Source of the DNA: Curtobacterium oceanosedimentum
GTDB lineage: Bacteria; Actinomycetota; Actinomycetes; Actinomycetales; Microbacteriaceae
Direction: 5' to 3'
Assembly: GCF_020297365.1 (NCBI RefSeq)
Contig: NZ_JAIXIG010000007.1
Coordinates: forward strand, 990 to 64,989
DNA length: 64,000 bases
A program made the translations under genes and the position numbers. Positions 5,903 through 24,907 of this stretch are shown here, in pieces. Position 1 is the first letter of the stretch. The number at the start of each line of letters is the position of its first letter. Below the pieces are notes generated by a model. The model was not told where the DNA came from, made no database searches, and saw only the letters and a list, made by a program, of their open reading frames with translations.

Positions 5903-7834
5903 GTGAGCGCAGCGGAGTACGAAGAGCAGCAGCCCGCCACGCTGTGGGCCGAGTCGGGGGACGACCAGGCCGGAGGCGGTGCGGGGTCGTCACGGTCGGT
6001 GGACGGCGACGCCGCACGTGACGAGGCCGACGCAGCGGCACTGGCCGAGGCCGCCGGCAACGCGGCCGTCCAGCACCTTTCTCCCGCGTTCCCTGACCGC
6101 GCCGCGTGGGGGACCGCGTCGAAGCTCCGCGCCTGGCAGGTCGAAGCGCTCACGAAGTACTTCGAGAAGGAGCCGCGCGACTTCCTGACCGCCGCCACGC
6201 CCGGCGCCGGCAAGACGACCTTCGCGCTGCGCCTGGCGACGGAACTGCTCGCCCGCGGCACCGTCGACCGGATCGTGGTCGTCGCGCCCACCGAGCACCT
6301 CAAGCGGCAGTGGGCCGACTCCGCCGACCGCGTGGGCATCCGCATCGACCCGATGTTCAAGAACGGCGACGGCATGTTCGGCCGCCACTACCAGGGCGTC
6401 GCGATCACCTACGCCCAGGTCGGCATGAACCCCGAGGTCCACAAGACGATCACCGAGGGCGGCCGCACCCTGGTCATCCTCGACGAGGTCCACCACGGCG
6501 GCGACGCGCTCACCTGGGGCGACGGCATCCGCGAGGCGTTCACCGGCGCGACCCGCCGTCTGTCGCTGTCCGGGACCCCGTTCCGCTCCGACACCGCACC
6601 GATCCCGTTCGTGCAGTACGCCCCCGACGAGCAGGGCATCCGGACCTCGATCTCCGACTACAACTACGGCTACGGCCGCGCCCTGAAGGACGGCGTGGTC
6701 CGTCCGGTGCTGTTCATGGCCTACGCCGGCCAGATGCGGTGGAAGACCCGGATGGGCGACGAGATGTCGGCGTCCCTCGGCGAGCAGGTCACGAAGGACA
6801 TCACCGCGCAGGCGTGGCGCACCGCGCTGTCGCCCGAGGGCGAGTGGATGCCGGCCGTGCTCAGCGCTGCCGACAAGCGCCTGACCGAGGTCCGTCGGGG
6901 CGTGCCCGACGCCGGCGGGCTCGTCATCGCGACGGACACCACGACGGCGCGCGCCTACGCCCGCATCCTGCAGCAGATCACGGGGGAGCGCCCCACCGTC
7001 GTCCTGTCCGACGAGGCCGCCGGGTCGAGCCGCATCAGCGCGTTCGCCGCCGACACGTCGCGCTGGATGGTCGCCGTCCGCATGGTGTCCGAGGGCGTGG
7101 ACGTCCCACGGCTGTGCGTCGGCGTGTACGCCACGAGCGCGAGCACGCCGCTGTTCTTCGCCCAGGTGATCGGCCGCTTCGTGCGGGCCCGACGTCGCGG
7201 GGAGACCGCGAGCGTGTTCCTGCCGAGCGTGCCCGGCTTGATGGCGCTGGCCGCGAGCCTGGAGCTCGAGCGCGACCACGCCCTCGACCGGCCGAAGGAC
7301 GCCGACGACGGGCTCTACAATCCGGAAGACGCCATGGTCGCCGAGGCGAACAAGGAGGACCGGGCGTCCGAGAGCCTGCTCGAGGTGCAGCCGTTCGAGG
7401 CGCTCGACTCGCAGGCATCGTTCGACCGCGTGCTCTACGACGGCGGTGAGTTCGGGACGGGCGGCGAGGTCGGGTCCCTCGAGGAGCTCGACTTCATCGG
7501 CATACCCGGCCTGCTCGAACCCGACCAGGTGCGCGACCTGCTCCGCGCACGGCAGGCGACCCAGGCGAAGCGGTCCAAGGGCCGCACGGTCAAGGACGGG
7601 CAGCCGAAGGCCGCCGAGCCCGAGAACCGCCCGATGTACATGACGATCAAGGAGCAGCGCACCGAGCTCGCGCGGCTCGTGTCGATCTGGTCGCGGCACT
7701 CGAACGAGCCGCACGGTGCGATCCACGCCGAACTCCGGCGGATCAGCGGTGGTCCGGCCGTGGCGCAGGCGAGCATCGAGCAGATCCAGAAGCGCATCGA
7801 CGTCCTGCGCTCCCGCATCGGCGGGCGTCGGTGA
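5903..7834 (+). CDS. DEAD/DEAH-box helicase (superfamily 2, XPB-like)
   Basis: 643-aa SF2 helicase, probably acting in DNA repair or nucleic-acid remodelling. The N-terminal ~80 residues are acidic and low in complexity. Motif I is TPGAGKTTFALRL near residue 100, the DEVH form of motif II is in LVILDEVHHGG near 195, motif III is SLSGTPFRSD near 215, and the RecA2 motif VI is QVIGRFVRARRRGE near 420. The last ~150 residues contain a linker followed by a helical segment (ELARLVSIWSRHSNEPHGAIHAEL). The GTG start lies 8 nt after TAGAAT (5889-5894); an upstream GTG at 5882 would overlap that promoter. Downstream, the 69-aa gene starts 7 bp after the stop. Confidence 0.87.
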   Translation: MSAAEYEEQQPATLWAESGDDQAGGGAGSSRSVDGDAARDEADAAALAEAAGNAAVQHLSPAFPDRAAWGTASKLRAWQVEALTKYFEKEPRDFLTAATPGAGKTTFALRLATELLARGTVDRIVVVAPTEHLKRQWADSADRVGIRIDPMFKNGDGMFGRHYQGVAITYAQVGMNPEVHKTITEGGRTLVILDEVHHGGDALTWGDGIREAFTGATRRLSLSGTPFRSDTAPIPFVQYAPDEQGIRTSISDYNYGYGRALKDGVVRPVLFMAYAGQMRWKTRMGDEMSASLGEQVTKDITAQAWRTALSPEGEWMPAVLSAADKRLTEVRRGVPDAGGLVIATDTTTARAYARILQQITGERPTVVLSDEAAGSSRISAFAADTSRWMVAVRMVSEGVDVPRLCVGVYATSASTPLFFAQVIGRFVRARRRGETASVFLPSVPGLMALAASLELERDHALDRPKDADDGLYNPEDAMVAEANKEDRASESLLEVQPFEALDSQASFDRVLYDGGEFGTGGEVGSLEELDFIGIPGLLEPDQVRDLLRARQATQAKRSKGRTVKDGQPKAAEPENRPMYMTIKEQRTELARLVSIWSRHSNEPHGAIHAELRRISGGPAVAQASIEQIQKRIDVLRSRIGGRR

Positions 7835-7841
7835 CCCTCGC

Positions 7842-8051
7842 GTGATCGAGCCGGTCGACGACCGCACCTGGTACGTCAAGCGCGACCCCGAGGCGTCACC
7901 CGAGGCGATCATCGACCGCTTCGGGGGCGGCTACCGCCTGCGCCGGTTCTCGCTCACCGAGTCGCGACGGACCCCGCACGGCGTCTTCACCGGCCCGGAA
8001 CTCGCCGAGACCGCGTGGTGGCGGCTCCGCGACAGGCCGCGCAGCTCATGA
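7842..8051 (+). CDS. Small conserved-looking hypothetical protein, 69 aa
   Basis: Not recognised as a named family. Starts with GTG 7 bp after the helicase stop, so it is probably co-transcribed. The protein is basic to neutral, soluble, with no membrane segment, and rich in Arg, Trp and Tyr: TWYVKRDPEA near the start, then DRFGGGYRLRRFSL, HGVFTGPELAETAWWRL and RDRPRSS at the end. The pattern of aromatic and basic residues resembles short nucleic-acid-associated proteins, but I cannot assign a function. Coding status rests on tight spacing and GC3 bias consistent with neighbours. Confidence 0.6.
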   Translation: MIEPVDDRTWYVKRDPEASPEAIIDRFGGGYRLRRFSLTESRRTPHGVFTGPELAETAWWRLRDRPRSS

Positions 8052-13193: not shown

Positions 13194-14024
13194 ATGCACA
13201 TCCTCGAGGCGATCTTCCTCGGCTTCGTCCAGGGGCTCACCGAGTTCCTGCCGGTCTCGTCGAGCGCACACCTGCGCATCGTCGGGCTCTTCCTGCCCGA
13301 CGCGAAGGACCCGGGTGCGGCGTTCACCGCGGTGACCCAGCTCGGCACCGAGACCGCCGTGCTCATCTACTTCTGGAAGGACATCACCCGGATCATCGGG
13401 CGGTGGTTCCGGTCGGTGGTCAAGCGCGACGTGCCGAAGGGTGACCCGGACGTCCGGCTCGGGTGGCTCGTGATCCTCGGCACGATCCCGATCGGCATCG
13501 CCGGACTCCTGCTCAAGGACTCGATCGAGACGACGTTCCGGTCGCTCTGGATCGTGGCGATCGTGCTCATCGTCTTCGGCGTGGTGCTCGGGGTGCTCGA
13601 CCGGGTCGGGCGCAAGGAACGCCGGATCGAGCAGATGACCTTCAAGGGCGGTCTGCTCATCGGTCTGGCGCAGATGCTCGCACTGGTCCCCGGGGTCTCC
13701 CGGTCCGGGGCCACGGTCTCGATGGGGCTCGCCCTCGGCTACACCCGCCCGGCGGCGGCGCGCTTCGCGTTCCTGCTCGCCGTCCCCGCGGTGTTCCTGT
13801 CCGGCTTCTACGAGGCCGCGACGAGCCTGGGCGACCACGGGTCGCCGTTCGGACTCGTCGACACGCTCATCGCGACGGCCGTGGCGTTCGTCGTCGGCTT
13901 CGTCGTGATCGCGGCGTTCATGAACTACATCAGCAAGCGGAGCTTCATGCCCTTCGTGGTCTACCGGATCGCACTGGGTATCGTGCTCATCGTGTTGTTG
14001 TCGCTCGGAGTGATCCAGCCGTGA
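13194..14024 (+). CDS. uppP: Undecaprenyl-diphosphatase
   Basis: 276-aa polytopic membrane enzyme that dephosphorylates undecaprenyl pyrophosphate to recycle the lipid carrier of cell-wall synthesis; it also confers bacitracin tolerance in other bacteria. Signature motifs are [18 protein letters not shown] at residues ~9-26 and [13 protein letters not shown] near 168, holding the catalytic Glu, Ser and Arg. About seven to eight hydrophobic segments are visible. The upstream gap carries TATTGT (13132-13137) as a likely -10 and GAAAGG before the ATG. Its stop overlaps the mshC start by 4 bp (GTGA), so the two are translationally coupled; the same adjacency is seen in mycobacteria. Confidence 0.95.
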
Positions 14025-15265
14025 GGGCCTGGCAGGCCCCGTCCGTCCCCGACGTCCCCGGCTCCGCGCCCCGACCGGTCGTGCACGACACCGCCACGGG
14101 CAAGCCGGTCGACCCCGCCCGCGACGAGGACCGTGCCGCGCTGTACGTGTGCGGCATCACGCCCTACGACGCCACGCACCTCGGGCACGCGGCGACGTAC
14201 CTGGCGTTCGACACGCTCGGCCGCGCCTGGCGTGATGCCGGACTCGACGTCGAGTACGCGCAGAACGTCACCGACGTCGACGACCCGCTGCTCGAACGTG
14301 CCGCCCGTGACGGCGTCGACTGGCGCGAACTCGCCGCGTCCCAGGTCGACCTGTTCCGTCGTGACATGGAGGCCCTGCGCATCCTGCCGCCCGACGACTT
14401 CGTGGCCGTCACCGACGAGGTCGAGCGTGTCGCCGAGGCCGTCTCGTTCCTGCAGGAGACCGGTTCCGCCTACGAGGTCCCCACCGAGGACGCCGAGGGC
14501 GACGACCTGTACTTCGACGTCAACCACGCCGCCGACGGTTGGACGCTCGGCGACGAGAGCGGCCTCGACCGCGAGACCATGCTCGCCCTGGCCGCCGAAC
14601 GTGGCGGGGACCCCGAACGACCGGGCAAGCGCGACCCGCTCGACCCGCTGCTCTGGCGTGCGGCCCGCGACGGCGAACCGAGCTGGGACACCGAGCTCGG
14701 ACCGGGCCGACCCGGCTGGCACATCGAGTGCAGCGTCATCGCCGGTGACAAGCTCGGTCTGCCCATCAGCGTGCAGGGTGGCGGCAGCGACCTGGTCTTC
14801 CCGCACCACGAGATGAGTGCCGGCCACGCGGCGGCACTGGCGCACCAGCCCCTGGCCAACGCCTTCGTGCACACCGGGATGATCGCGTACCAGGGCACGA
14901 AGATCTCGAAGTCGCTCGGCAACCTCGTCACCGTGCGCGGACTGCTCGACGGTGGTGCGGACCCCCGTGCCGTCCGGCTCGCGCTGCTGTCGCACAAGTA
15001 CTCCGACGACTGGGAGTGGTTTGACAGCGAATTGACGAGCGCCACGACCCGCCTGTCGGGGTGGGTCGACTGGGCGTCGGGCGCCTCGGCCGGGCACGCC
15101 GACGATGCGCCGGACGTCGCGGTCCGGATCCGTGCGCGGGTGTCGGACGACCTGGACACGCCAGGGGCCGTCGCTGCGGTGGACACCGCGATCGCCGGCG
15201 GGACGGCGTGCACACCCGAGCTCGTCGACCTGATCGACGCCCTGCTCGGTATCCGCCTGGCCTGA
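14021..15265 (+). CDS. mshC: L-cysteine:1D-myo-inositol 2-amino-2-deoxy-alpha-D-glucopyranoside ligase
   Basis: ATP-dependent ligase joining cysteine to GlcN-Ins in mycothiol synthesis, the third step of the actinobacterial thiol pathway. 414 aa, matching MshC. It is a cysteinyl-tRNA synthetase paralogue: the HIGH-like motif is in the [18 protein letters not shown] region near residue 45, and the KMSKS-like motif is KISKSLGN near 295. MshC rather than CysS is favoured by the length, by the lack of the tRNA-binding C-terminus, and by its place after uppP. The N-terminus [14 protein letters not shown] also matches the family. GTG start overlaps the uppP stop. Confidence 0.93.
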
Positions 15266-15555: not shown

Positions 15556-16491
15556 CTACTGCTGCGGGGGCTGCTGGGGGCGCCAGGGCCCCTCGCCACC
15601 GGCGGTGCCGCCGTCCTTGCCGTCCTTGCGCTCCCGGCGGCGCAGGTACTGCTCGAACTCCTGCGCGATGGCGTCGCCCGAGGCCTCGGGGGAGTCGACC
15701 GTGTCACGCGCCTGCTCGAGCTGCCCGATGTAGGACGCCATGTCCTCGTCGTCGGCGGCGAGGGCGTCGATGCCCTCCTCCCACTCGGTGGCATCGTCGA
15801 GCAGCGAGCCCCGCGGCACCGTGACGTCGGCGAGCTCCTCGATCTTGTCGAGCAGCGAGAGCGTGGCCTTCGGCGAGGGCGAGTTGTGCACGTAGTGCGG
15901 CACCGAGGCCCAGAGCGACAGCGTGGTCAGCCCGGCCTTGTCCATCGCGTCGGCGAGGACCCCGAGGATCCCGGTCGGGCCCTCGTACGACGATCGGTCG
16001 ACGTCGAAGGCCGAGCGGACGCCGGCGTCCTCGCTCGACACGAACACCGAGATGGGGCGCGTGTGCGGGACGTCGGCGAGCATCGCCCCGACGAACACGA
16101 CCGCGTCGATGGAGTAGACGTCCGCCAGGTCGATGATCTCCGCGCAGAAGCCGCGCCAGGTGCGCGAGGGCTCCGGACCGACGAGCACGTAGACGTCGCG
16201 GTCGGTGGAGGAACCGGTCGCGCCGATGACCGGACGGCCCTCGGCACCGGGGCCGTGCAGCACGATCCGCGGCCACTGCACGCCCCGGTCGCCGTTCTCG
16301 TCGGTGCCGACCGTGGGCCGGTTGAACTGGTAGTCGACGTACCGCTCACCGTCGAGCTCGCGCAGCTCCTCGAGTCCGAGGGAGTCGACGATGCGGCGGG
16401 CGAGTCCGCTGGCGGCCTCGCCGGCGTCGTTCCAACCCTCGAAGGCGACGACGAGCAACCGGCCGTCGCTGAAGGGGGTGTGCTGTGGCAC
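15556..16491 (-). CDS. PAC2 family protein (proteasome assembly chaperone fold)
   Basis: 311-aa actinobacterial PAC2-family protein. In archaea and eukaryotes PAC2 proteins help assemble 20S proteasomes; the bacterial role is not settled. Visible conserved segments are LLVVAFEGWNDAGEAASG near the N-terminus, VYVLVGPEPSRTWRGF near 110 and DAVVFVGAMLADVPHTRP near 140. The C-terminal ~40 residues are a charged, Gln/Pro-rich tail. The GTG at 16491 has AGGAGG 8 nt upstream, which decides the start over the longer open frame to 16551. In mycobacteria the same family is encoded near the Pup-proteasome genes, but no proteasome gene is present here. Confidence 0.85.
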   Translation of the reverse strand: MPQHTPFSDGRLLVVAFEGWNDAGEAASGLARRIVDSLGLEELRELDGERYVDYQFNRPTVGTDENGDRGVQWPRIVLHGPGAEGRPVIGATGSSTDRDVYVLVGPEPSRTWRGFCAEIIDLADVYSIDAVVFVGAMLADVPHTRPISVFVSSEDAGVRSAFDVDRSSYEGPTGILGVLADAMDKAGLTTLSLWASVPHYVHNSPSPKATLSLLDKIEELADVTVPRGSLLDDATEWEEGIDALAADDEDMASYIGQLEQARDTVDSPEASGDAIAQEFEQYLRRRERKDGKDGGTAGGEGPWRPQQPPQQ

Positions 16492-16638
16492 GGAGCGGAC
16501 CTCCTGGTGGTGGAGCGGGGCGGGGCGGGAGCGGTGCCCCCGGCCGGACACGATTCAGGCATCCACTGTAGGCCCAGGGGGTGTCCCCGCACGCGCGCGT
16601 CCGCGCCCAGCGGAACGGCCCCGGTAGACTCGTCGCCC

Positions 16639-17397
16639 GTGACCGCGCAACCTCCTGCCCTCGTCCTGCCCGCAGCCGTGCTGTGGGACATGGACGGCAC
16701 GATCATCGACACCGAGCCGATCTGGCAGCGGTCCCAGGTCGAGTTGACGACCCGGTACGGCGCCGAGTGGACGGAGCAGGACGGCCTGTCCCTCGTGGGC
16801 AGCGGCCTCGAGCGCTCCGGCGAACTCCTGCGCGCCAAGGGCGTCGACATGGAGGTCGACGAGATCGTCGAGTGGATGACCGACTACGTCATGGAGCGCC
16901 TGCGCAGCGGTGACCTGCCGTGGCGGCCCGGCGCCCGCGAGCTGATCGAGGAGCTGCACGACCGCGGCATCCCGACCGCCCTGGTCACGATGTCCCGGCG
17001 CCGGATGGCGCTCGTGGCCGCCGAGGCGCTGGGCGCGCACGGCTTCCGCGTCGTGGTGGCCGGTGACGACGTCGACCGTCCCAAGCCCTTCCCGGACGCC
17101 TACCTGTCCGCCGCCGCGCAGCTCGGCGTCGAGCCGACCGCCTGCGTCGCGATCGAGGACTCCGCCACCGGCGTCGCCTCGGCCGTCGCCTCCGGCGCCG
17201 TCACGGTCGCCGTCGAGCACATCGTCCCGCTGTCCGAGATCGCCGGCGGGGACGTGCACCTGACCACCCTGGCGGACGTCGACGTCGACCGTCTGGTCGA
17301 GTTGACGACGCCGGCCCTGGCTGCTCGAGCCGGAGAGCCGGGAGGCGCGGTGCCGGACCCGGCGCACGCTGCGGACACCGAGGGGGTCACCCGATGA
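16639..17397 (+). CDS. HAD-superfamily hydrolase (phosphatase / phosphoglucomutase-like)
   Basis: 252-aa HAD hydrolase of subfamily IA. The nucleophile motif is LWDMDGTIIDTEP (first Asp nucleophile, second acid/base) at residue ~17, motif II is ALVTMSRRR near 118, motif III Lys is in DRPKPFPDAYL near 152, and motif IV is AIEDSATGVASA near 172. It probably dephosphorylates a small sugar phosphate. GTG lies 8 nt after TAGACT (16625-16630), leaderless. The C-terminal tail (AGEPGGAVPDPAHAADTEG) is encoded by a family B palindrome arm. Stop and the next start overlap as ATGA. Confidence 0.87.
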   Translation: MTAQPPALVLPAAVLWDMDGTIIDTEPIWQRSQVELTTRYGAEWTEQDGLSLVGSGLERSGELLRAKGVDMEVDEIVEWMTDYVMERLRSGDLPWRPGARELIEELHDRGIPTALVTMSRRRMALVAAEALGAHGFRVVVAGDDVDRPKPFPDAYLSAAAQLGVEPTACVAIEDSATGVASAVASGAVTVAVEHIVPLSEIAGGDVHLTTLADVDVDRLVELTTPALAARAGEPGGAVPDPAHAADTEGVTR

Positions 17398-17447
17398 ACC
17401 ACGACGACGCACGCGACGAGGCGGACGCGAGCCGCGCCTCCCGTCCG
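17338..17447. repeat. Split family B palindrome spanning the HAD/trmI junction
   Basis: The left arm CCGGGAGGCGCGGTGCCGG (17338-17356) lies in the last codons of the HAD gene. The matching right arm CCGCGCCTCCCGTCCG (17432-17447) lies in the first codons of trmI, with the ATGA start/stop overlap between them. Both protein segments are low-complexity tails. Confidence 0.6.
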
Positions 17448-18569
17448 ACCGCCGACCCGACCGCAGCGCTCCCGCACACCGCGGGCGGCGCACCGCACAC
17501 GCCGCCCCGCGGCCCGTTCCGGGCCGGCGACCGCGTGCAGCTGACCGGTCCGAAGGGCAAGCTCACGACGCTGTCGCTCGAGACCGCCGGCGAGTACCAC
17601 ACGCACCGCGGGGTGCTCCGGCACGACGACGTCATCGGCCAGCCCGACGGTTCCGTCATCCGGGCGAGCACGGGCGACGAGTACCTGGCGCTCCGACCGC
17701 TCCTGAACGACTACGTCATGTCGATGCCGCGCGGCGCGGCCATCGTCTACCCGAAGGACGCCGCACAGATCGTGGCCTTCGCGGACGTCTTCCCGGGGGC
17801 CCGCGTGGTCGAGGCGGGCGTCGGCTCGGGCGCGCTGTCGCTCTTCCTGCTCCGCGCGATCGGCCCGACCGGTCAGCTGCAGTCGTTCGAGCGCCGCGAG
17901 GAGTTCGCGGCCATCGCGAAGGGCAACGTCGGCACGTTCCTCGGGGCCGTCCCGGACAACTGGTCCGTCACCGTCGGCGACCTCGTGGAGGCCCTGCCCG
18001 AGGCGACCGAGCCGCAGAGCGTCGACCGCGTGGTGCTCGACATGCTCGCGCCGTGGGAGTGCGTGGACGCCGCAGCCGACGCCCTCGTGCCCGGCGGACT
18101 CATCGTCTGCTACGTCGCGACCGTCACCCAGCTGTCCCGCACGGCCGAGGCGCTGCGCGACACCGGCCGGTTCACCGACCCGATGCCGAGCGAGACCCTG
18201 GTGCGCACCTGGCACGTCGAGGGCCTGGCCGTCCGCCCGGACCACCGCATGGTCGGGCACACCGGCTTCCTGATCACCGCGAGGCGCCTGGCCGACGGCA
18301 CGGTGCTGCCGAACCTGAAGCGCCGCGCGGGCAAGGTCGAGTTCTCGGACGAGGACATCGAGGCCTGGACCCCCGGTGCCGTCGGCGAGCGGGCCACGAG
18401 CGACAAGAAGCTCCGCAAGGTCGCCCGGCAGTCGGCGGCGCAGGCGCGCAAGGTCGCGGCGGCCGAGGCGGCGTCGGCATCGGACGCTGCTGCGGCCGCG
18501 TCCGGGGCTGCTCCGGCGGCGCCCGACGCCGCTCCGGCCGCGTCCGGGGCCGACGAGGACGACCGGTAG
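17394..18569 (+). CDS. trmI: tRNA (adenine-N1)-methyltransferase
   Basis: 391-aa SAM-dependent enzyme methylating A58 in the T loop of tRNAs. The fold is recognisable: N-terminal small beta domain (PFRAGDRVQLTGPKGKL, HRGVLRHDDVIGQPDGSV), the TrmI signature YPKDAAQIVAFADVFPGA near 120, SAM-binding VVEAGVGSGALSLFLLRAIG near 140, and DRVVLDMLAPWE near 210. An Ala-rich coil of about 60 residues forms the C-terminus. The first ~40 residues are a poorly conserved extension that includes part of a palindromic repeat. It overlaps the HAD gene by 4 bp. TrmI normally lies next to the ARC/Mpa-dop-pup genes in mycobacteria. Confidence 0.92.
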   Translation: MNHDDARDEADASRASRPTADPTAALPHTAGGAPHTPPRGPFRAGDRVQLTGPKGKLTTLSLETAGEYHTHRGVLRHDDVIGQPDGSVIRASTGDEYLALRPLLNDYVMSMPRGAAIVYPKDAAQIVAFADVFPGARVVEAGVGSGALSLFLLRAIGPTGQLQSFERREEFAAIAKGNVGTFLGAVPDNWSVTVGDLVEALPEATEPQSVDRVVLDMLAPWECVDAAADALVPGGLIVCYVATVTQLSRTAEALRDTGRFTDPMPSETLVRTWHVEGLAVRPDHRMVGHTGFLITARRLADGTVLPNLKRRAGKVEFSDEDIEAWTPGAVGERATSDKKLRKVARQSAAQARKVAAAEAASASDAAAAASGAAPAAPDAAPAASGADEDDR

Positions 18570-18611
18570 GCTGACGGCGTGCCCGTCCTGCATCGAACGG
18601 AAAGAGGGTCC

Positions 18612-19538
18612 GTGCGCACCATCCCCGCACTCCTGGTCACCATCGGTCTCGCCGCGTCGCTCACCGCCTGCGCGTCGAACGGTGCCGGTACCACGCCCTC
18701 GAGCTGTGCCGCCCCCGGTGCCGCGTCCGAAGCGGTGACCGCCACCGGCAAGTTCGGCTCGGAGCCGAAGGTCACCGTGCCGAAGGGACTGACGACGAAG
18801 GGCACCCAGGTGTCCGTGCTGCAGCAGGGCAGCGGGCGCACGATCGACGACGGCACGCCCGTGCTGGTGGAGTACACCCTGGTGGACGGCACCACCGGAC
18901 AGGTCGCCCAGACGAGCGGCTACTCCGGCCAGACCGCCCCGATCACGGCCGGCGCGAGCAACTACGGAGCGCTCGGCGACTCGCTGCAGTGCGCGCGTGT
19001 CGGCGACCGCCTCGCGGTGGCCCTGCCGAAGAGCGCCCTGAGCAGCACGCCCGACGGCGCCGCCGCCGGCAGCGGTTCGTCCGACGAGACCGAGGACGCG
19101 GTCATCGCCGTCATCGACGTCAAGCGCGCGTTCGACGCCCGTGCCACCGGCACGCCGCAGCTCGCCGGCGACCGGATGCCGGCCGTCGTGCTCGCGCCCT
19201 CCGGGGCCCCCGGCATCACGATCCCGTCGTGGACGGCGCCGAAGGGCAACGAGACCCACCTGCTCCGCAAGGGCGACGGTCGGAAGCTCACCGCGGAGGA
19301 CACCGCGGTCATCAAGTACACCGCGGTCACGTGGAGTGCCGACCCGACGGTGGCCGGCTCGAGCTGGACCGACGGCTCGGGCGCGCAGACGATCCCGCTC
19401 GCCGAGGGCCAGGTCGACGAGGGCGTCCGGAAGGCCGTCGTCGGCCACCGCGTCGGCGACCAGGTCCTCGCCGTCGTGAACCAGCAGGGCACCGCGTACG
19501 CGTACGTCATCGACGTGCTCGGAGCCATGTCGAACTGA
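18612..19538 (+). CDS. FKBP-type peptidyl-prolyl isomerase-like lipoprotein
   Basis: 308-aa exported lipoprotein. The signal peptide LLVTIGLAASLTACASNG ends in lipobox LTAC, giving a lipid-anchored protein on the outer face of the membrane. Two FKBP-like repeats follow: one around DGTPVLVEYTLVDG to ARVGDRLAVALP and a second around DTAVIKYTAVTW to VVGHRVGDQVLAVV. It likely assists folding of secreted proteins. A GTG at 18579 directly after TAGGCT (18567-18572) is also possible, but the GTG at 18612 has GGAAAGAGG in front and gives a proper signal peptide, so the 33 nt between would be a short leader. Confidence 0.85.
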   Translation: MRTIPALLVTIGLAASLTACASNGAGTTPSSCAAPGAASEAVTATGKFGSEPKVTVPKGLTTKGTQVSVLQQGSGRTIDDGTPVLVEYTLVDGTTGQVAQTSGYSGQTAPITAGASNYGALGDSLQCARVGDRLAVALPKSALSSTPDGAAAGSGSSDETEDAVIAVIDVKRAFDARATGTPQLAGDRMPAVVLAPSGAPGITIPSWTAPKGNETHLLRKGDGRKLTAEDTAVIKYTAVTWSADPTVAGSSWTDGSGAQTIPLAEGQVDEGVRKAVVGHRVGDQVLAVVNQQGTAYAYVIDVLGAMSN

Positions 19539-19609
19539 CCCCGGTCGACCCTCCACGGACCGCGGCGCGGGTGCACTCCGGTGCACCCGCGCTGCCGTAG
19601 GATCGGCTC

Positions 19610-20644
19610 GTGCCAGCGACCCGAGTGCCCCGTGTGCCCGCCGAGGAGCGGCTGTTCAGCCTCGTGCTCGCGCTGCTCTCGACGGAGTCGGGGCTGACCA
19701 AGGGCGAGATCCTGGCGAACGTGCAGGGCTACCGCCAGCGGTTCACGCCGGGCGGCGACAACGCCTCGCTCGAGCGCCAGTTCGAGCGTGACAAGGACGA
19801 CGTCCGCGAGCTCGGGATCCCGCTCGAGACCATCGAGACCCCCGGTGCCGCCGGCAACAACCAGACGTTGCGGTACCGGATCCCGAAGGGCGAGTACGAC
19901 CTGCCCGTCGACGTCCGCTTCACCCCGGACGAGTCGGCACTGCTGTCCCTGGCCGCGATGGCCTGGCGCGAGGGTGCCCTGTCCGCCGACTCCCGACGGG
20001 GGCTCCTCAAGGTGCGCTCCGCCGGTGCCGAGGACGACGACGGCGCGCTGCAGCTCGGCGTCGACGCCTACGCGCCGCGGCTCCGTGCCCGTGACGCGTC
20101 CTTCGAGCCGCTCCGGTCGGCGCTGGACCGCGGTGCCGCGGTGCGCTTCGACTACATCACCCCGGGGCAGCACGAGGCCCGGCGACGTTCGGTCGCGCCG
20201 CTCGCCCTCGTGCAGCACGGCGGCCGGTGGATGCTCGCCGCCCACGAGTTCGCCACCGACTCCGACAAGAACTACCTGCTGTCCCGGATCGTCGGGCCGG
20301 TGACCCAGTACGAGGTTGGCCAGCACACGGCTCCCGTGGGGGCGGGGGAGCGCACGCTCGCCGGCCTCGAGCACGTCTGGGCCGCACGCACCGCGCGCAT
20401 CGCCGTGACCCCCGGGTCCGATGCCGAGCGCCGGCTCACCCGCCGTCGCGACACCGAGACCGACGCGGACGGCGCCCTCGTGCTCCACCACGTCGACCCG
20501 CAGATCCTGGCCGAGGAACTCGCCGCCTTCGGACCGGAGGTCCGGGTGCTCGAGCCAGACGACCTGCGCGTCCGCGTCGAGGAGCGGCTGCGCGCCCTCG
20601 TGCGCGACCACAGCGATGCCGGAGAGGACACCGACCGTGGCTGA
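19610..20644 (+). CDS. pafB: WYL-domain transcriptional regulator PafB
   Basis: 344-aa DNA-binding regulator. The N-terminal winged helix (EERLFSLVLALLSTESGLTKGEIL) is followed by a WYL domain (about residues 140-260) and a C-terminal WCX extension. In mycobacteria PafB acts with PafC as a DNA-damage-responsive transcription activator independent of LexA. GTG lies 6 nt after TAGGAT (19598-19603), a leaderless start. It overlaps pafC by 8 bp. Named for proteasome accessory factor because it adjoins pafA elsewhere; pafA is not in this window. Confidence 0.9.
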   Translation: MPATRVPRVPAEERLFSLVLALLSTESGLTKGEILANVQGYRQRFTPGGDNASLERQFERDKDDVRELGIPLETIETPGAAGNNQTLRYRIPKGEYDLPVDVRFTPDESALLSLAAMAWREGALSADSRRGLLKVRSAGAEDDDGALQLGVDAYAPRLRARDASFEPLRSALDRGAAVRFDYITPGQHEARRRSVAPLALVQHGGRWMLAAHEFATDSDKNYLLSRIVGPVTQYEVGQHTAPVGAGERTLAGLEHVWAARTARIAVTPGSDAERRLTRRRDTETDADGALVLHHVDPQILAEELAAFGPEVRVLEPDDLRVRVEERLRALVRDHSDAGEDTDRG

Positions 20645-21608
20645 GGCCCAACCCCTGCAGGCGCAGGACAAGCTCGCGTTCCTGCTCGCCCTGGTGCCCT
20701 ACCTGATCGACCGTGAACGCGTCTCGGTGGCCGAGGCCGCTCGGCACTTCGGTGTGCCCGAGGCCCGCATCCGACGCGCCGTCGAGCTCATCGCCGTGTC
20801 GGGCGTCCCGGGCGAGACGATGCAGTACCAGCACGGTGACCTGTTCGACATCGCCTGGGACGACTTCGACCAGAACGACATGATCGTGCTCACCAACCTG
20901 GTGGCGATCGACGACTCGCCTCGGCTGTCCGCTCGCGAGGCGTCGGCGCTCATCGCCGGGCTGCAGTACCTGTCCGCCCTGCCCGAGGCCGCCGACCGTG
21001 ACGCCATCCGCGCGCTCATGGCGAAGCTGTCGCGCGGGGCCGGGGGAGCGGCGTCGACCGTCGCCGTCGGGCAGGACCTGCACGACGTCGCGCTGGCCAC
21101 CATCCGCCGGGCGATGTCCGACGGTCGTGGGCTGACGTTCGAGTACGCCGGACCGCGCACGCAGGGCGGTACCCGCCGGGTGGACCCGTTGCGCGTCGAG
21201 TCGATCGACACCGACTGGTACCTCCGAGCCTGGGACCTCGACCGCCAGGCGCTCCGGACCTTCCGGCTCGACCGGATGTCCGAGGTGTGCGTGGACGAGC
21301 GTCCCGCCGAGAAGACGATCGACCAGGTCGTCATCCCGGACACCCTCTTCCAGCAGGCCGCCGACGACGTCATCGTCACGGTCGAGCTCGACTCGACGTC
21401 GCTGCCGCTGGTCGCCGACTTCCTCGCCGACACCGCCGACGCGCCGGACGCCGACGGGCGGGTGCGCATCCGGCTCGCCGCGTCGCACGGGTTCGACGGG
21501 GTGGTGCGGCTCGTCGCAGGGCTGCCGGGGCGGGCGGTGGTCCTCGACCCGCCGGCCGCGCGGGCGGCGGTGCGGGACTTCGCCGCAGGTGCCCTCGCCG
21601 CGGGCTGA
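20637..21608 (+). CDS. pafC: WYL-domain transcriptional regulator PafC
   Basis: 323-aa partner of PafB with the same architecture: helix-turn-helix (ERVSVAEAARHFGVPEARIRRAVEL), a WYL domain with LTFEYAGPRTQGGTRRVDPLRV near 165, and a C-terminal WCX region (VVIPDTLFQQAADDVIVTVEL). The GTG start lies inside the last codons of pafB, so the two subunits are coupled in translation, as expected for the PafBC complex. The PafBC regulon in mycobacteria is the main mitomycin and quinolone response. Confidence 0.9.
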   Translation: MAEAQPLQAQDKLAFLLALVPYLIDRERVSVAEAARHFGVPEARIRRAVELIAVSGVPGETMQYQHGDLFDIAWDDFDQNDMIVLTNLVAIDDSPRLSAREASALIAGLQYLSALPEAADRDAIRALMAKLSRGAGGAASTVAVGQDLHDVALATIRRAMSDGRGLTFEYAGPRTQGGTRRVDPLRVESIDTDWYLRAWDLDRQALRTFRLDRMSEVCVDERPAEKTIDQVVIPDTLFQQAADDVIVTVELDSTSLPLVADFLADTADAPDADGRVRIRLAASHGFDGVVRLVAGLPGRAVVLDPPAARAAVRDFAAGALAAG

Positions 21609-21650
21609 CCCGCGGCGGACTGTCGGTGCGGACCCCGTAAGATCGACGAC

Positions 21651-22472
21651 ATGGCTTCGACGACCGCGCGCGGGCGAGCGAAGCGGCAGGGGCGCCAGAA
21701 GACCGACGCCGAAGGCCGCATGTCGCTCGGGCAGCACCTCATCGAGCTGCGCAACCGCCTGTTCCGCGCAGTCATCGCGATCGTCGTCGGTGCGATCGGC
21801 GGGTGGTTCCTGACCCCGTTCGTGCTCGACGCGCTCCGTGCGCCGGTGACGCAGCTCGCCGAGGTCGGTGGCCACACCGCCGAGCTGAACTTCCCGATGA
21901 TCACCGGGGCGTTCGACCTCAAGCTCCAGATCGCGATCACGATCGGCATCGTGCTCGCCAGCCCGGTCTGGCTCTACCAGATCTGGGCGTTCATCGTCCC
22001 CGCGCTGGTCCGGCGCGAGAAGCAGTACGTGTGGGGCTTCCTCGGCACCGCGATCCCGCTGTTCTTCGGCGGCTGCTACTTCGGGTGGTTCATCCTGCCG
22101 CACGTGGTCGGCATCCTCGGCAGCTTCGTCTCGAGCGAGGACACCTCGATCGTCGACGCGAAGGCGTACTACGACTTCGTCATCAAGCTCATCGTGGCGG
22201 TCGGCATCGCGTTCGTCCTGCCGGTCTTCCTCGTCCTGCTCAACTTCGTCGGGGTGCTGACGGCCGCTTCGATCATCAAGAGCTGGCGCGTCGCGATCCT
22301 CTGCATCCTGGTCTTCTGCGCCATCGTCACGCCGAGCTCGGACATCATCTCGATGTTCCTGCTCGCGGTCCCGATGCTGGTGCTCTACCTCGCCGCGTGC
22401 CTCGTGACGTGGATCCACGACCGCCGGGTCGCCAAGCGCCAGGCCAAGCTCGACGAGGAGTACGGCCTGTGA
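21651..22472 (+). CDS. tatC: Sec-independent protein translocase TatC
   Basis: 273-aa polytopic membrane protein and receptor subunit of the twin-arginine export pathway. The N-terminal signature SLGQHLIELRNRLFRAV at residues ~25-40 and six hydrophobic segments are visible, with the conserved FFGGCYFGWFILP region near 140. ATG lies 7 nt after TAAGAT (21638-21643), suggesting a leaderless mRNA separate from pafBC. The usual partner gene tatA is not between pafC and tatC (only 42 bp), so it must be elsewhere. It overlaps helY by 4 bp (GTGA). Confidence 0.94.
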   Translation: MASTTARGRAKRQGRQKTDAEGRMSLGQHLIELRNRLFRAVIAIVVGAIGGWFLTPFVLDALRAPVTQLAEVGGHTAELNFPMITGAFDLKLQIAITIGIVLASPVWLYQIWAFIVPALVRREKQYVWGFLGTAIPLFFGGCYFGWFILPHVVGILGSFVSSEDTSIVDAKAYYDFVIKLIVAVGIAFVLPVFLVLLNFVGVLTAASIIKSWRVAILCILVFCAIVTPSSDIISMFLLAVPMLVLYLAACLVTWIHDRRVAKRQAKLDEEYGL

Positions 22473-24907
22473 CGGGTGCCAGCGCGGCCGAGCGGTTCGC
22501 CGCGGCCAAGGTCCGCAACCGTTCGCGCAACCTCGAACTGTTCCGGTCCGACCTGCGCTTCGACCTCGACCCGTTCCAGTTCGCCGCCTGCGACGCGCTC
22601 GACCAGGGGCGCAGCGTGCTCGTCGCCGCCCCGACGGGTGCCGGCAAGACGATCGTCGCGGAGTTCGCGATCTGGCTCGCGATGCGCCAGCCGACCGCCA
22701 AGGTCTTCTACACGACGCCGATGAAGGCGTTGAGCAACCAGAAGTACGCCGAGCTCGTCGACGTGTACGGGGAGTCCGAGGTCGGGCTGCTGACGGGCGA
22801 CACGAACGTCAACCCCCGCGCACGCGTCGTCGTCATGACGACCGAGGTCCTGCGCAACATGATCTACGCGGACTCCGACCTGCTCGACGACCTCGCCTGG
22901 GTCGTGCTCGACGAGGTGCACTACCTGGCCGACCGGTTCCGCGGGGCCGTGTGGGAAGAGGTGATCCTGCACCTGCCGACCGAGGTGCGCCTGGTCTCGC
23001 TGAGCGCCACGGTGTCCAACGCCGAGGAGTTCGGCGACTGGCTGCAGACCGTCCGCGGCGACACCGACGTCATCGTGTCGGAGGACCGCCCGGTCCCGCT
23101 CGAGCAGCACGTGCTCGTCGGCTCGAAGATGGTCGACCTGTTCGACTCGAGCGGCGCCGCGGCGACGAACCGCGTGAACCCCGAGCTGCTCCGCATGGTC
23201 GGCGGCGGTGCACGCAGCGAACGGCACGGCGGCGGACACCGCGGCCGTCGCGGACGCGGGGGCTACCCGGAACGTCGTGGCCCGCGCACCGAGAAGGTGC
23301 ACCGCGAGCAGATCGCGCACATGCTCGACGAGCGGATGCTGCTGCCCGCGATCTTCTTCGTGTTCAGCCGGAACGGGTGCGACCAGGGCGTCCGCAACGT
23401 GCTGCGCTCCGGGCTCTCGCTCACGACCGTGCAGGAGCGCAACGAGATCCGCGAGACGGCGGAGTACCACTGCCGCACGCTGCTCGACGAGGACCTCGCC
23501 GTCCTCGGGTACTGGGAGTGGCTCGAAGGGCTCGAGCGTGGCGTCGCCGCGCACCACGCCGGTCTGCTGCCCGCGTTCAAGGAGGTCGTCGAGAACCTCT
23601 TCCAGCGCAAGCTGCTCAAGGTCGTGTTCGCGACCGAGACCCTGGCGCTCGGCGTCAACATGCCGGCGCGCACGGTGGTGCTCGAGAAGCTCGAGAAGTT
23701 CAACGGCGAAGCGCGCGTGCCGATCACGCCGGGGGAGTACACGCAGCTCACCGGTCGTGCCGGCCGTCGTGGCATCGACGTCGAGGGGCACTCGGTCATC
23801 CAGTGGACGGACGGCCTCGACCCGCAGGCCGTCGCGTCACTCGCGAGCCGCCGGACGTACCCGCTCAACTCGTCGTTCCGGCCGACGTACAACATGGCCG
23901 TCAACCTGATCGAACAGTTCGGTCGGCAGCGCACGCGCGAGGTCCTCGAGACCTCGTTCGCGCAGTTCCAGGCAGACCGGTCCGTCGTCGACCTCGCGCG
24001 GAAGGTCCGTTCCCAGCAGGAGTCGCTGGACGGCTACCGCCAGGCGATGGAGTGCCACCTCGGTGACTTCACCGAGTACTCCTCGCTCCGTCGCGAGCTG
24101 TCCGACCTCGAGCGCACCAACGTGCCCGGCGGCCGCGAGGCCTCGCACGGCGCACGGCAGGAACGCCAGGCGGCGATCACGGCGGTCCGTCGGCAGCTCC
24201 AGCGGCACCCCTGCCACGCCTGCCCGGACCGCGAGGCGCACGCGCGCTGGTCGGAACGCTGGTGGAAGCTCAAGCGCGCCAACGACAAGCTGGTCCAGCA
24301 GATCCGGTCCCGTACGGGCGCCGTGGCGACGACGTTCGACCGGGTGACCGAGGTGCTCCTCGAGCTCGGGTACCTCGTCGACGCGGGCAACGGCGAGGCA
24401 ACGGTCGCCGCGGGCGGGCGACGCCTGCAGCGCATCTACGGCGACCGCGACCTGCTCGTCGCCGAGTGCCTCGAGGCGGGGGTCTGGAAGGACCTCACCC
24501 CGGCGCAGCTCGCCGCGATGGCTGCCACGATCGTCTACCAGCCCCGACGCGAAGACGCCCCCGGCACCGAGCACGCGCTGCCCCGCGGCGCCTTCCGCCC
24601 CGCCCTCGACGAGACCCTGACCATCTGGTCGCGACTCGACGACGTCGAACGCGCCGCGCGCCTGGCCGGCTCGCAGCCGCCCACCCCGGCGATGGCGGTC
24701 GGCATGTTCCGCTGGGCCTCGGGCTCGGCCCTCGACGACGTCCTGCGCACGCTCGACCTGCCGGCCGGTGACTTCGTGCGCTGGTCGAAGCAGGTCATCG
24801 ACCTGCTCGACCAGATCCGGAACGCCGGTGACGACGACCTCGCCCAGACCGCGCGGCGCGCGACGGACGCGGTGCGCCGCGGCATCGTCGCCTACGCGAC
24901 GGTCTGA
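22469..24907 (+). CDS. helY: Ski2-like DEAD/DEAH-box RNA helicase HelY
   Basis: 812-aa helicase of the Ski2/Mtr4 type, probably acting in RNA processing or decay. Motif I is APTGAGKTIVAEFAI near residue 55, motif Ia region TTPMKALSNQKY, DEVH box VVLDEVHYLADRF near 150, SAT motif SLSATVSN near 180, and motifs V/VI in FATETLALGVNMPARTVV and QLTGRAGRRGIDVEGH near 430. An Arg/Gly/His-rich insert (about 250-275) interrupts the helicase core. The C-terminal part has a CHACPDREAH metal-like motif and a helical DSHCT-type domain. Placement after tatC matches mycobacterial order. Confidence 0.92.
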   Translation: MTGASAAERFAAAKVRNRSRNLELFRSDLRFDLDPFQFAACDALDQGRSVLVAAPTGAGKTIVAEFAIWLAMRQPTAKVFYTTPMKALSNQKYAELVDVYGESEVGLLTGDTNVNPRARVVVMTTEVLRNMIYADSDLLDDLAWVVLDEVHYLADRFRGAVWEEVILHLPTEVRLVSLSATVSNAEEFGDWLQTVRGDTDVIVSEDRPVPLEQHVLVGSKMVDLFDSSGAAATNRVNPELLRMVGGGARSERHGGGHRGRRGRGGYPERRGPRTEKVHREQIAHMLDERMLLPAIFFVFSRNGCDQGVRNVLRSGLSLTTVQERNEIRETAEYHCRTLLDEDLAVLGYWEWLEGLERGVAAHHAGLLPAFKEVVENLFQRKLLKVVFATETLALGVNMPARTVVLEKLEKFNGEARVPITPGEYTQLTGRAGRRGIDVEGHSVIQWTDGLDPQAVASLASRRTYPLNSSFRPTYNMAVNLIEQFGRQRTREVLETSFAQFQADRSVVDLARKVRSQQESLDGYRQAMECHLGDFTEYSSLRRELSDLERTNVPGGREASHGARQERQAAITAVRRQLQRHPCHACPDREAHARWSERWWKLKRANDKLVQQIRSRTGAVATTFDRVTEVLLELGYLVDAGNGEATVAAGGRRLQRIYGDRDLLVAECLEAGVWKDLTPAQLAAMAATIVYQPRREDAPGTEHALPRGAFRPALDETLTIWSRLDDVERAARLAGSQPPTPAMAVGMFRWASGSALDDVLRTLDLPAGDFVRWSKQVIDLLDQIRNAGDDDLAQTARRATDAVRRGIVAYATV

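Follow-up and report, generated by a model that had tools for sequence, protein, structure and literature searches.

In mycobacteria, the Pup-proteasome system (PPS) removes repair proteins after DNA damage (PMC6789036). In Mycobacterium smegmatis PafB, binding of single-stranded DNA (ssDNA) is abolished by mutating R181, Y196, R211 together with R214, or R181 together with R204 and R208, and mutation of the PafC pair R201/R204 leaves it intact (PMC11804915). For the PAC2 family, Iyer et al. 2008 proposed a proteasome-assembly chaperone role for the actinobacterial relative cg2106 (PMC2588565), and ParJ, whose S. avermitilis orthologue is PDB entry 3mnf, controls ParA polymers in Streptomyces (PMC4255298, citing Ditkowski 2010). 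Here we describe the corresponding locus in Curtobacterium oceanosedimentum (Microbacteriaceae), in a stretch of 64,000 nucleotides that we call the window (contig NZ_JAIXIG010000007.1, positions 990 to 64,989), in which the PPS genes are missing from between trmI and pafB. The reading that we favor, with a probability of roughly 0.8, joins 3 elements: loss of the PPS in Microbacteriaceae, a PAC2 protein that is independent of the proteasome, and retention of PafBC. The ancestor of the family would have lost ARC, Dop, Pup, PrcA, PrcB, and PafA along with the distantly encoded Bpa, leaving trmI beside the gene of an FKBP lipoprotein. PAC2, as a ParJ/Rv2125-type protein, would have stayed because it never depended on the proteasome, and PafBC, which would switch on DNA-repair genes from RecA-NDp promoters, because this switching needs no pupylation.

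Pup was not found in a genome-wide search of the window's own genome (3.3 Mb, 99.96% complete), which also gave no match to the Pup ligase, proteasome, or Bpa models, and its matches to the ARC model were only AAA domains, the best scoring 154.8 bits against a cut-off of 504.75. The Pup ligase PafA and the depupylase Dop (PF03136) were absent from all 299 Microbacteriaceae genomes searched, spanning 85 genera and including the window's own, and from the 14 Microbacteriaceae genomes in a sample of the order. Among the order's 184 other genomes in that sample, 181 have the Pup ligase, and the 3 without it measure 0.8 to 1.8 Mb. The 20S subunits PrcA and PrcB (PF00227) were found in 0 of 150 family genomes, with proteasome subunits present in 175 of 216 genomes of the class. 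No match over the 504.75-bit cut-off to the ARC/Mpa ATPase (TIGR03689) was identified in 100 family genomes, 99 of which had weak AAA-domain matches to the model (best, 163 bits). Bpa was found in none of 100 family genomes by a search that, in controls, recovered it from all 10 proteasome-positive genomes and from none of 7 without a proteasome. When proteins of the outgroup locus L054 (ARC, Dop, Pup, PrcB, PrcA, and PafA) served as tblastn queries, neither the window nor any of 100 family loci gave a match; 12 to 15 of 16 outgroup loci, counting L054, were matched. Pup in particular was matched in 0 of the 100 family loci and the window versus 15 of 16 outgroup loci, a search of loci rather than of whole genomes family-wide.

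These counts bear on the possibility that the PPS genes were relocated and not lost. The TatA-type genes of this genome do not lie beside tatC, so the neighborhood is not frozen and genes could have moved out of it. Against this stand the lack of any match in a nearly complete genome and the zero counts for the Pup ligase, proteasome, ARC over the cut-off, and Bpa across the family samples, and we rejected relocation at the sensitivity of these profile searches as vanishingly improbable. Because no PPS component was found and 181 of 184 relatives in the order carry the Pup ligase, deletion is supported over relocation. The first-pass annotation of the window had noted the missing core genes and left it undecided whether they had been deleted cleanly or moved; the loss is borne out as a deletion, with no PPS gene found elsewhere in the genome, and extends to a family-wide scale and an age that the annotation had not seen.

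The interval itself was compared in 100 family loci. Of these, 20 (L071-L090) were taken around PafC matches, 15 being chosen from the 30 best PafC matches among 150 genomes and 5 from lower scorers (G038, G054, G207, G222, and G256), and 80 (L133-L212) were the best 80 of 561 TrmI relatives, among which a few genera are overrepresented. Because L076 and L204 are the same locus, 99 are distinct. trmI and the FKBP-like lipoprotein gene adjoin in all 100 loci, with a median gap of 81 bp between alignment ends and a gap below 500 bp in 99 of them. The sole locus at or above 500 bp, L074, has a second FKBP-like lipoprotein gene in tandem, placed after trmI and ahead of the usual one (around 6752-7906). 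In outgroups (16 loci from 15 genomes, L062 and L063 sharing one), the distance between the 2 genes was 5.2 to 10.6 kb in all 12 loci with both genes in the stretch. In L054, which was annotated in full, this space holds exactly ARC-Dop-Pup-PrcB-PrcA-PafA, followed by FKBP-type genes, the first directly 3' of pafA, and a fused PafBC. The FKBP-like lipoprotein gene of the window corresponds to the gene that immediately follows pafA in outgroups (tblastn match to the FKBP gene of outgroup loci, 25-32% identity). The interval is closed in the family and PPS-filled or wide in the outgroups.

Over its best segment, TrmI of the window is 89-96% identical to 11 Curtobacterium records. In a TrmI tree, which represents a single gene and has weakly supported deeper nodes, the Microbacteriaceae are monophyletic (0.944) and sister to the PPS-complete L054 (0.987), and this nesting beside a PPS-bearing locus argues that the loss is secondary and old. 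That the family never had a PPS and the short interval is ancestral would agree with an interval closed in every family locus seen. It is very improbable given the Pup ligase across the order, the proteasome subunits across the class, and a complete cluster at this very place in the nearest relative of the TrmI tree, and we rejected it on this order-wide, class-wide, and tree-based evidence. On comparison of sequences, loss of the whole PPS in the Microbacteriaceae is thus nearly certain, as is the retention of PafBC.

Scans with hidden Markov models confirmed the gene order reported for the window, uppP-mshC-PAC2(minus)-HAD-trmI-FKBP-pafB-pafC-tatC-helY, including the single FKBP lipoprotein gene between trmI and pafB; uppP and mshC lie just upstream of the interval first described, whose first gene is PAC2. 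The features are as follows.

13194..14024, plus strand: uppP, the conserved left flank (NCBIfam NF001392, 336.5 bits, over cut-off)
14021..15265, plus strand: mshC (TIGR03447, 544.9 bits, over cut-off)
15556..16551, minus strand: PAC2-family gene of the ParJ (SCO1662)/Rv2125 branch (PF09754, 188.9 bits)
16639..17397, plus strand: HAD-family hydrolase, start approximate (PF13419, PF00702)
17394..18569, plus strand: trmI (PF14801, PF08704)
18570..18578, no strand: trmI-FKBP junction of 9 bp, the closed site of the apparent loss, where relatives carry ARC-dop-pup-(prcB-prcA)-pafA
18579..19538, plus strand: FKBP-like lipoprotein gene (weak FKBP_C match, 20.5 bits vs a cut-off of 21.1)
19610..20644, plus strand: pafB (WYL and WCX domains; aligned to PafB of PDB 7p5x/9fnd)
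20643..21608, plus strand: pafC, start approximate (HTH_PafC 110 bits, WYL and WCX domains; PafC orthology)
21651..22472, plus strand: tatC, the right flank (TIGR00945)
about 22469..24907, plus strand: helY-type DEAD/DSHCT helicase gene (PF00270 and PF08148, in the longer frame scanned)

We identified PAC2 in 39 of 41 genomes without proteasome subunits and in 173 of 175 genomes with them, among the 216 genomes of the class. The best PDB chains for the window protein were 3mnf (221 bits) and Rv2125 (5un0, 197 bits), with only 66-82 bits against the Cgl1923, SCO1997, and 2wam chains. None of the PAC2 C-termini read, 97 from the family and 7 from outgroups, was HbYX-like; as a control for this reading of C-termini, a GQYL tail was seen in 9 of 14 outgroup ARC proteins. 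Rv2125 itself reportedly shows no binding to the 20S particle (Bai et al. 2017). The gene adjoins mshC in the window, as in several outgroup loci. By its sequence, the window PAC2 is a ParJ/Rv2125-type protein and not a proteasome gene, and by analogy with the literature on ParJ we infer a ParA-related function. The question raised in the first-pass annotation, what PAC2 does without a proteasome, rests on the name of the family, since PAC2 occurs irrespective of the proteasome. A stranded proteasome-assembly chaperone, which the family membership and the 2008 proposal for cg2106 would suggest (PMC2588565), is highly unlikely in view of this distribution, the nearest chains, and the lack of an HbYX tail in the 97 and 7 proteins; because PAC2 is present with or without a proteasome, the 216-genome distribution argues against the 2008 proposal of actinobacterial PAC2 as a proteasome chaperone.

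The third element, PafBC, is represented in the window by an adjacent pair of genes with WYL and WCX domains, a PafC-type HTH, and the syntenic place expected of PafBC. HTH_PafC matches were identified in 147 of 150 family genomes, 144 of them over the cut-off, and a syntenic pafB-pafC pair was present in 20 of the 20 loci fetched around such matches. Using a RecA-NDp consensus and counting exact matches, with the reversed pattern as control, we found 38 sites, distributed over 24 of 60 family genomes, versus 3 for the reversed pattern. Of the 38 sites, 30 were read; the 4 of these without an open reading frame (ORF) of 60 amino acids within 250 bp were excluded from the model scans. Eleven of the 30 precede genes for UvrB (2 genomes), RecA, Mfd, RadA, RarA, PcrA, SbcD, GyrB, NrdA, and NrdH, and at 13 an ORF starts 6-7 nt after the pattern, as expected of leaderless messages. 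PafBC is retained together with RecA-NDp motif sites, and from this arrangement we infer that it regulates the genes behind them.

Several observations weigh against so simple a picture. The HTH_PafC model also matches distant controls such as E. coli, so the counts of 147 and 144 may include other WYL regulators. No exact RecA-NDp match was found in 36 of the 60 family genomes, and the counts cover these 60 family genomes only. Further, 17 of the 30 sites precede neither a DNA-repair or metabolism gene nor a defense gene; these stand before an AraC-type regulator (twice, in the window's own genus), a ParA-like ATPase, a PhoH-like protein, YjbR, an abhydrolase, a nucleotidyltransferase, a glycosyl-hydrolase-like protein, and unrecognized ORFs, or, at 4 sites, before no ORF of 60 amino acids.

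Some of the sites are of interest in their own right. In the window's own genome, the RecA-NDp pattern has a single exact match (G000:C11:142791-142813, L098), 7 nt ahead of the gene for an AraC-family regulator, and the arrangement is repeated in a second species of the genus (G228:C8:105916-105938, L097); the regulator is possibly an extra layer of the damage response. Two of the 30 sites stand before defense-type genes, BrxA of a BREX system and a DrmD-like SNF2 helicase (L103, G217:C7:20680; L108, G216:C1:23576), which makes damage-triggered control of phage defense possible.

We compared the ssDNA-groove residues of the 2 subunits across the family and outgroups. By PDB alignments, M. smegmatis PafB R181, Y196, R204, R208, R211, and R214 correspond to window PafB positions 193, 208, 216, 220, 223, and 226, and the equivalent positions in window PafC are 178, 193, 201, 205, 208, and 211. 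The PafB and PafC conservation rows count the duplicate locus (L076, L204) twice. No PafB row was obtained from 26 of 56 order-level and 4 of 20 class-level outgroup loci, the gene being outside the stretch, elsewhere, or absent. Signature counts are for ungapped pairs only (97 family pairs, unaffected by the duplicate, 28 order, and 16 class).

In window PafB, M208, T216, and L223 replace Y196, R204, and R211. Outgroup PafB has Y196 in 46 of 46 rows, R or K in the R204 column in 45 of 46, and R or K in the R211 column in 46 of 46. In the 101 family rows, the Y196 column holds His in 77, Met in 16, Leu in 5, and Phe, Tyr, and a gap in 1 each; the R204 column holds R or K in 8 of 101; and the R211 column holds Leu in 100 of 100 ungapped rows. 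All 3 residues were lost in 89 of 98 ungapped family rows and 2 of them in the other 9. In PafB, 43 columns are conserved in 90% or more of outgroups; 4 of them fall below 30% in the family, and 3 of these 4 are the equivalents of Y196, R204, and R211. The PafC column equivalent to PafB R204 (position 201) is Ala or Ser in 42 of 44 outgroup proteins and R or K in only 1 of the 44; in the family, 98 of 99 proteins have R or K there. The 6-residue signature is confined to PafB in 43 of 44 outgroup pairs. Among the 97 family pairs, none has it in PafB and 66 have it in PafC, a number that rises to 92 with His allowed at the fifth position. Window PafC has the full PafB-type signature, including the family-specific R201.

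Scores against whole-domain models point the same way. The Pfam WYL model, which is independent of these gene labels, gives 43.5 bits for window PafB and 69.2 for PafC, and the family PafC WYL domain scores 57.9 bits on a model of outgroup PafB WYL domains versus 41.7 for outgroup PafC. We also tested whether pafB and pafC had exchanged or converted their WYL domains as a whole and rejected this, since the family domains group with their own gene: all 100 family PafB domains are nearer the outgroup PafB model, 84 of 99 family PafC domains are nearer the PafC model and 15 nearer the PafB model, and in a midpoint-rooted WYL tree every family domain (100 of PafB, 99 of PafC) lies on its own gene's side. 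A single outgroup PafB of 46 lies on the PafC side of this tree.

With the groove residues gone from PafB and a matching arginine gained in PafC, PafC would most likely be the main DNA-damage-sensing subunit in Microbacteriaceae. We advance only tentatively, at somewhat short of even odds, the fuller proposal that this is a PPS-free PafBC in which the ssDNA-sensing subunit has been exchanged from PafB to PafC at the same promoter motif. Without proteasomal removal of repair proteins, the response would be shut off otherwise, perhaps by Clp-type proteases.

Alternatively, PafBC may sense another ligand or be constitutively active, with the PafC changes reflecting drift or other contacts, which we hold less probable, though far from remote. 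Such a reading would fit the loss of 2 or all 3 of the PafB residues in every ungapped row and the lower mean net charge of the family PafB WYL domain (2.08 in 101 rows vs 4.39 in 46 outgroup rows). It would also fit the disappearance of a PafC tryptophan at or next to the tunnel position of M. smegmatis W250: at window column 255, W is present in 40 of 44 outgroup proteins and in none of the 99 from the family, and pairwise PDB alignment places W250 at window position 256, where the 5 commonest family residues are not W. It explains less well why the PafC arginine stands at the exact equivalent of PafB R204 in 98 of 99 proteins, and why family PafC WYL domains gain on the outgroup PafB model, a pattern that is directed and not random. 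The exchange of the sensing subunit faces objections of its own. PafB also has other family-specific fixed columns outside the groove, and PafC has 31 outgroup-conserved columns of which 6, scattered along the protein, drop under 30% in the family. Of the 97 family PafC proteins, 31 do not have the strict signature, and a His at one position accounts for 26 of these. In 39 of 44 outgroup pairs, PafC has RY(A/S)RRR to begin with; because outgroup PafC mostly has the other 5 residues, the PafC-side change amounts to one gained arginine.

A second lineage without a PPS at this place was identified in another order. In L273 (G592:C2:478000-497900, family f44), trmI lies directly beside pafB-pafC-tatC, and this is an apparent second closed interval with PafBC kept. 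The stretch of 19.9 kb held no PPS gene and no FKBP match, the pupylation genes having been checked in that stretch only, and the 175 genomes with a match to the proteasome model do not include genome G592. Here the evidence runs counter to a tie between PPS loss and the exchange: PafB and PafC of G592 keep ordinary groove signatures, and the Pfam WYL scores (PafB 71.0, PafC 44.0 bits) are the reverse of those in the window. PPS loss alone does not explain the groove change, since G592 keeps an ordinary PafB, and we considered and dropped a causal link from PPS loss to the PafB change as unproven. The Microbacteriaceae, moreover, are one clade in which the loss and the groove change count as one event each, too few to link the two within the family.

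Further observations concern the neighborhood and the samples. No tatA lies between pafC and tatC, where there are 42 bp (window 21609-21650; G000:C33:63469-63612); the 2 TatA/B/E-type matches of the genome are both on other contigs, and the pafC-tatC gap is below 150 bp between alignment ends in 10 of 97 family loci. mshC was identified in this neighborhood in 49 of 100 family loci only, some stretches ending at contig ends, which suggests that the mycothiol ligase gene was repeatedly lost or relocated within Microbacteriaceae. Just right of the window (G000:C61:68496-69059), an AAA domain in a frame of 499 amino acids scores 138 bits on the ARC model, below the cut-off, and its protein is possibly a Cdc48-like ATPase without a proteasome partner. 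Locus L194 (JASDDH010000012.1), in a record titled Planococcus sp. APC 4015, has a Microbacteriaceae-type trmI-FKBP-pafB arrangement, and the record is probably misnamed or contaminated. Outgroup loci L055 and L059 gave PrcA and PrcB matches, but their ARC proteins, as read, do not end in the GQYL docking tail. PafB and PafC matches fall in one open frame in L054, L217, L219, L220, and L248 (outgroup family f6) and are 2 genes in the window; natural PafBC fusions are known from Arthrobacter and Kocuria (PMC6789036).

The Microbacteriaceae are a family of common soil and plant bacteria that would have lost a system that their relatives keep. In such naturally occurring strains, DNA repair under PafBC has to proceed with no proteasome to clear the repair proteins, a step believed to terminate the response, and their PafBC lends itself directly to testing which of the 2 WYL domains is the ssDNA sensor; the exchange, if true, would be a natural sensor swap inside a heterodimer. 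In the open-access literature, we found nothing on Microbacteriaceae with pupylation or with the proteasome and Pup, nothing relevant on PafB with Microbacterium and DNA damage, and nothing naming both Rv2125 and PAC2. PMC4255298 names Leifsonia, Clavibacter, and Tropheryma together with the proteasome and remarks in passing that proteasome proteins were missing from 2 of the 4 genomes of an older survey, and parts of the PPS loss may already be known to specialists.

Among known systems, the Corynebacterium-type PPS loci share with the Microbacteriaceae a secondary loss at the same actinobacterial locus; they lose the proteasome subunit genes only (PMC3511204, PMC8223512) and keep the pupylation genes and the ATPase, whereas the Microbacteriaceae lose everything. 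The f44 locus resembles the window in its closed trmI-pafB side and differs in having no FKBP match and ordinary PafB and PafC signatures. ParJ (SCO1662) and Rv2125 are the best sequence matches of the window PAC2, which belongs to a lineage without any proteasome. With PafBC of M. smegmatis (PMC11804915, PMC6789036), the window shares a syntenic pair, the HTH, WYL, and WCX domains, and RecA-NDp-type sites before DNA-repair genes. Unlike it, the Microbacteriaceae pair has no PPS partner and carries the full groove signature in PafC, not in PafB.

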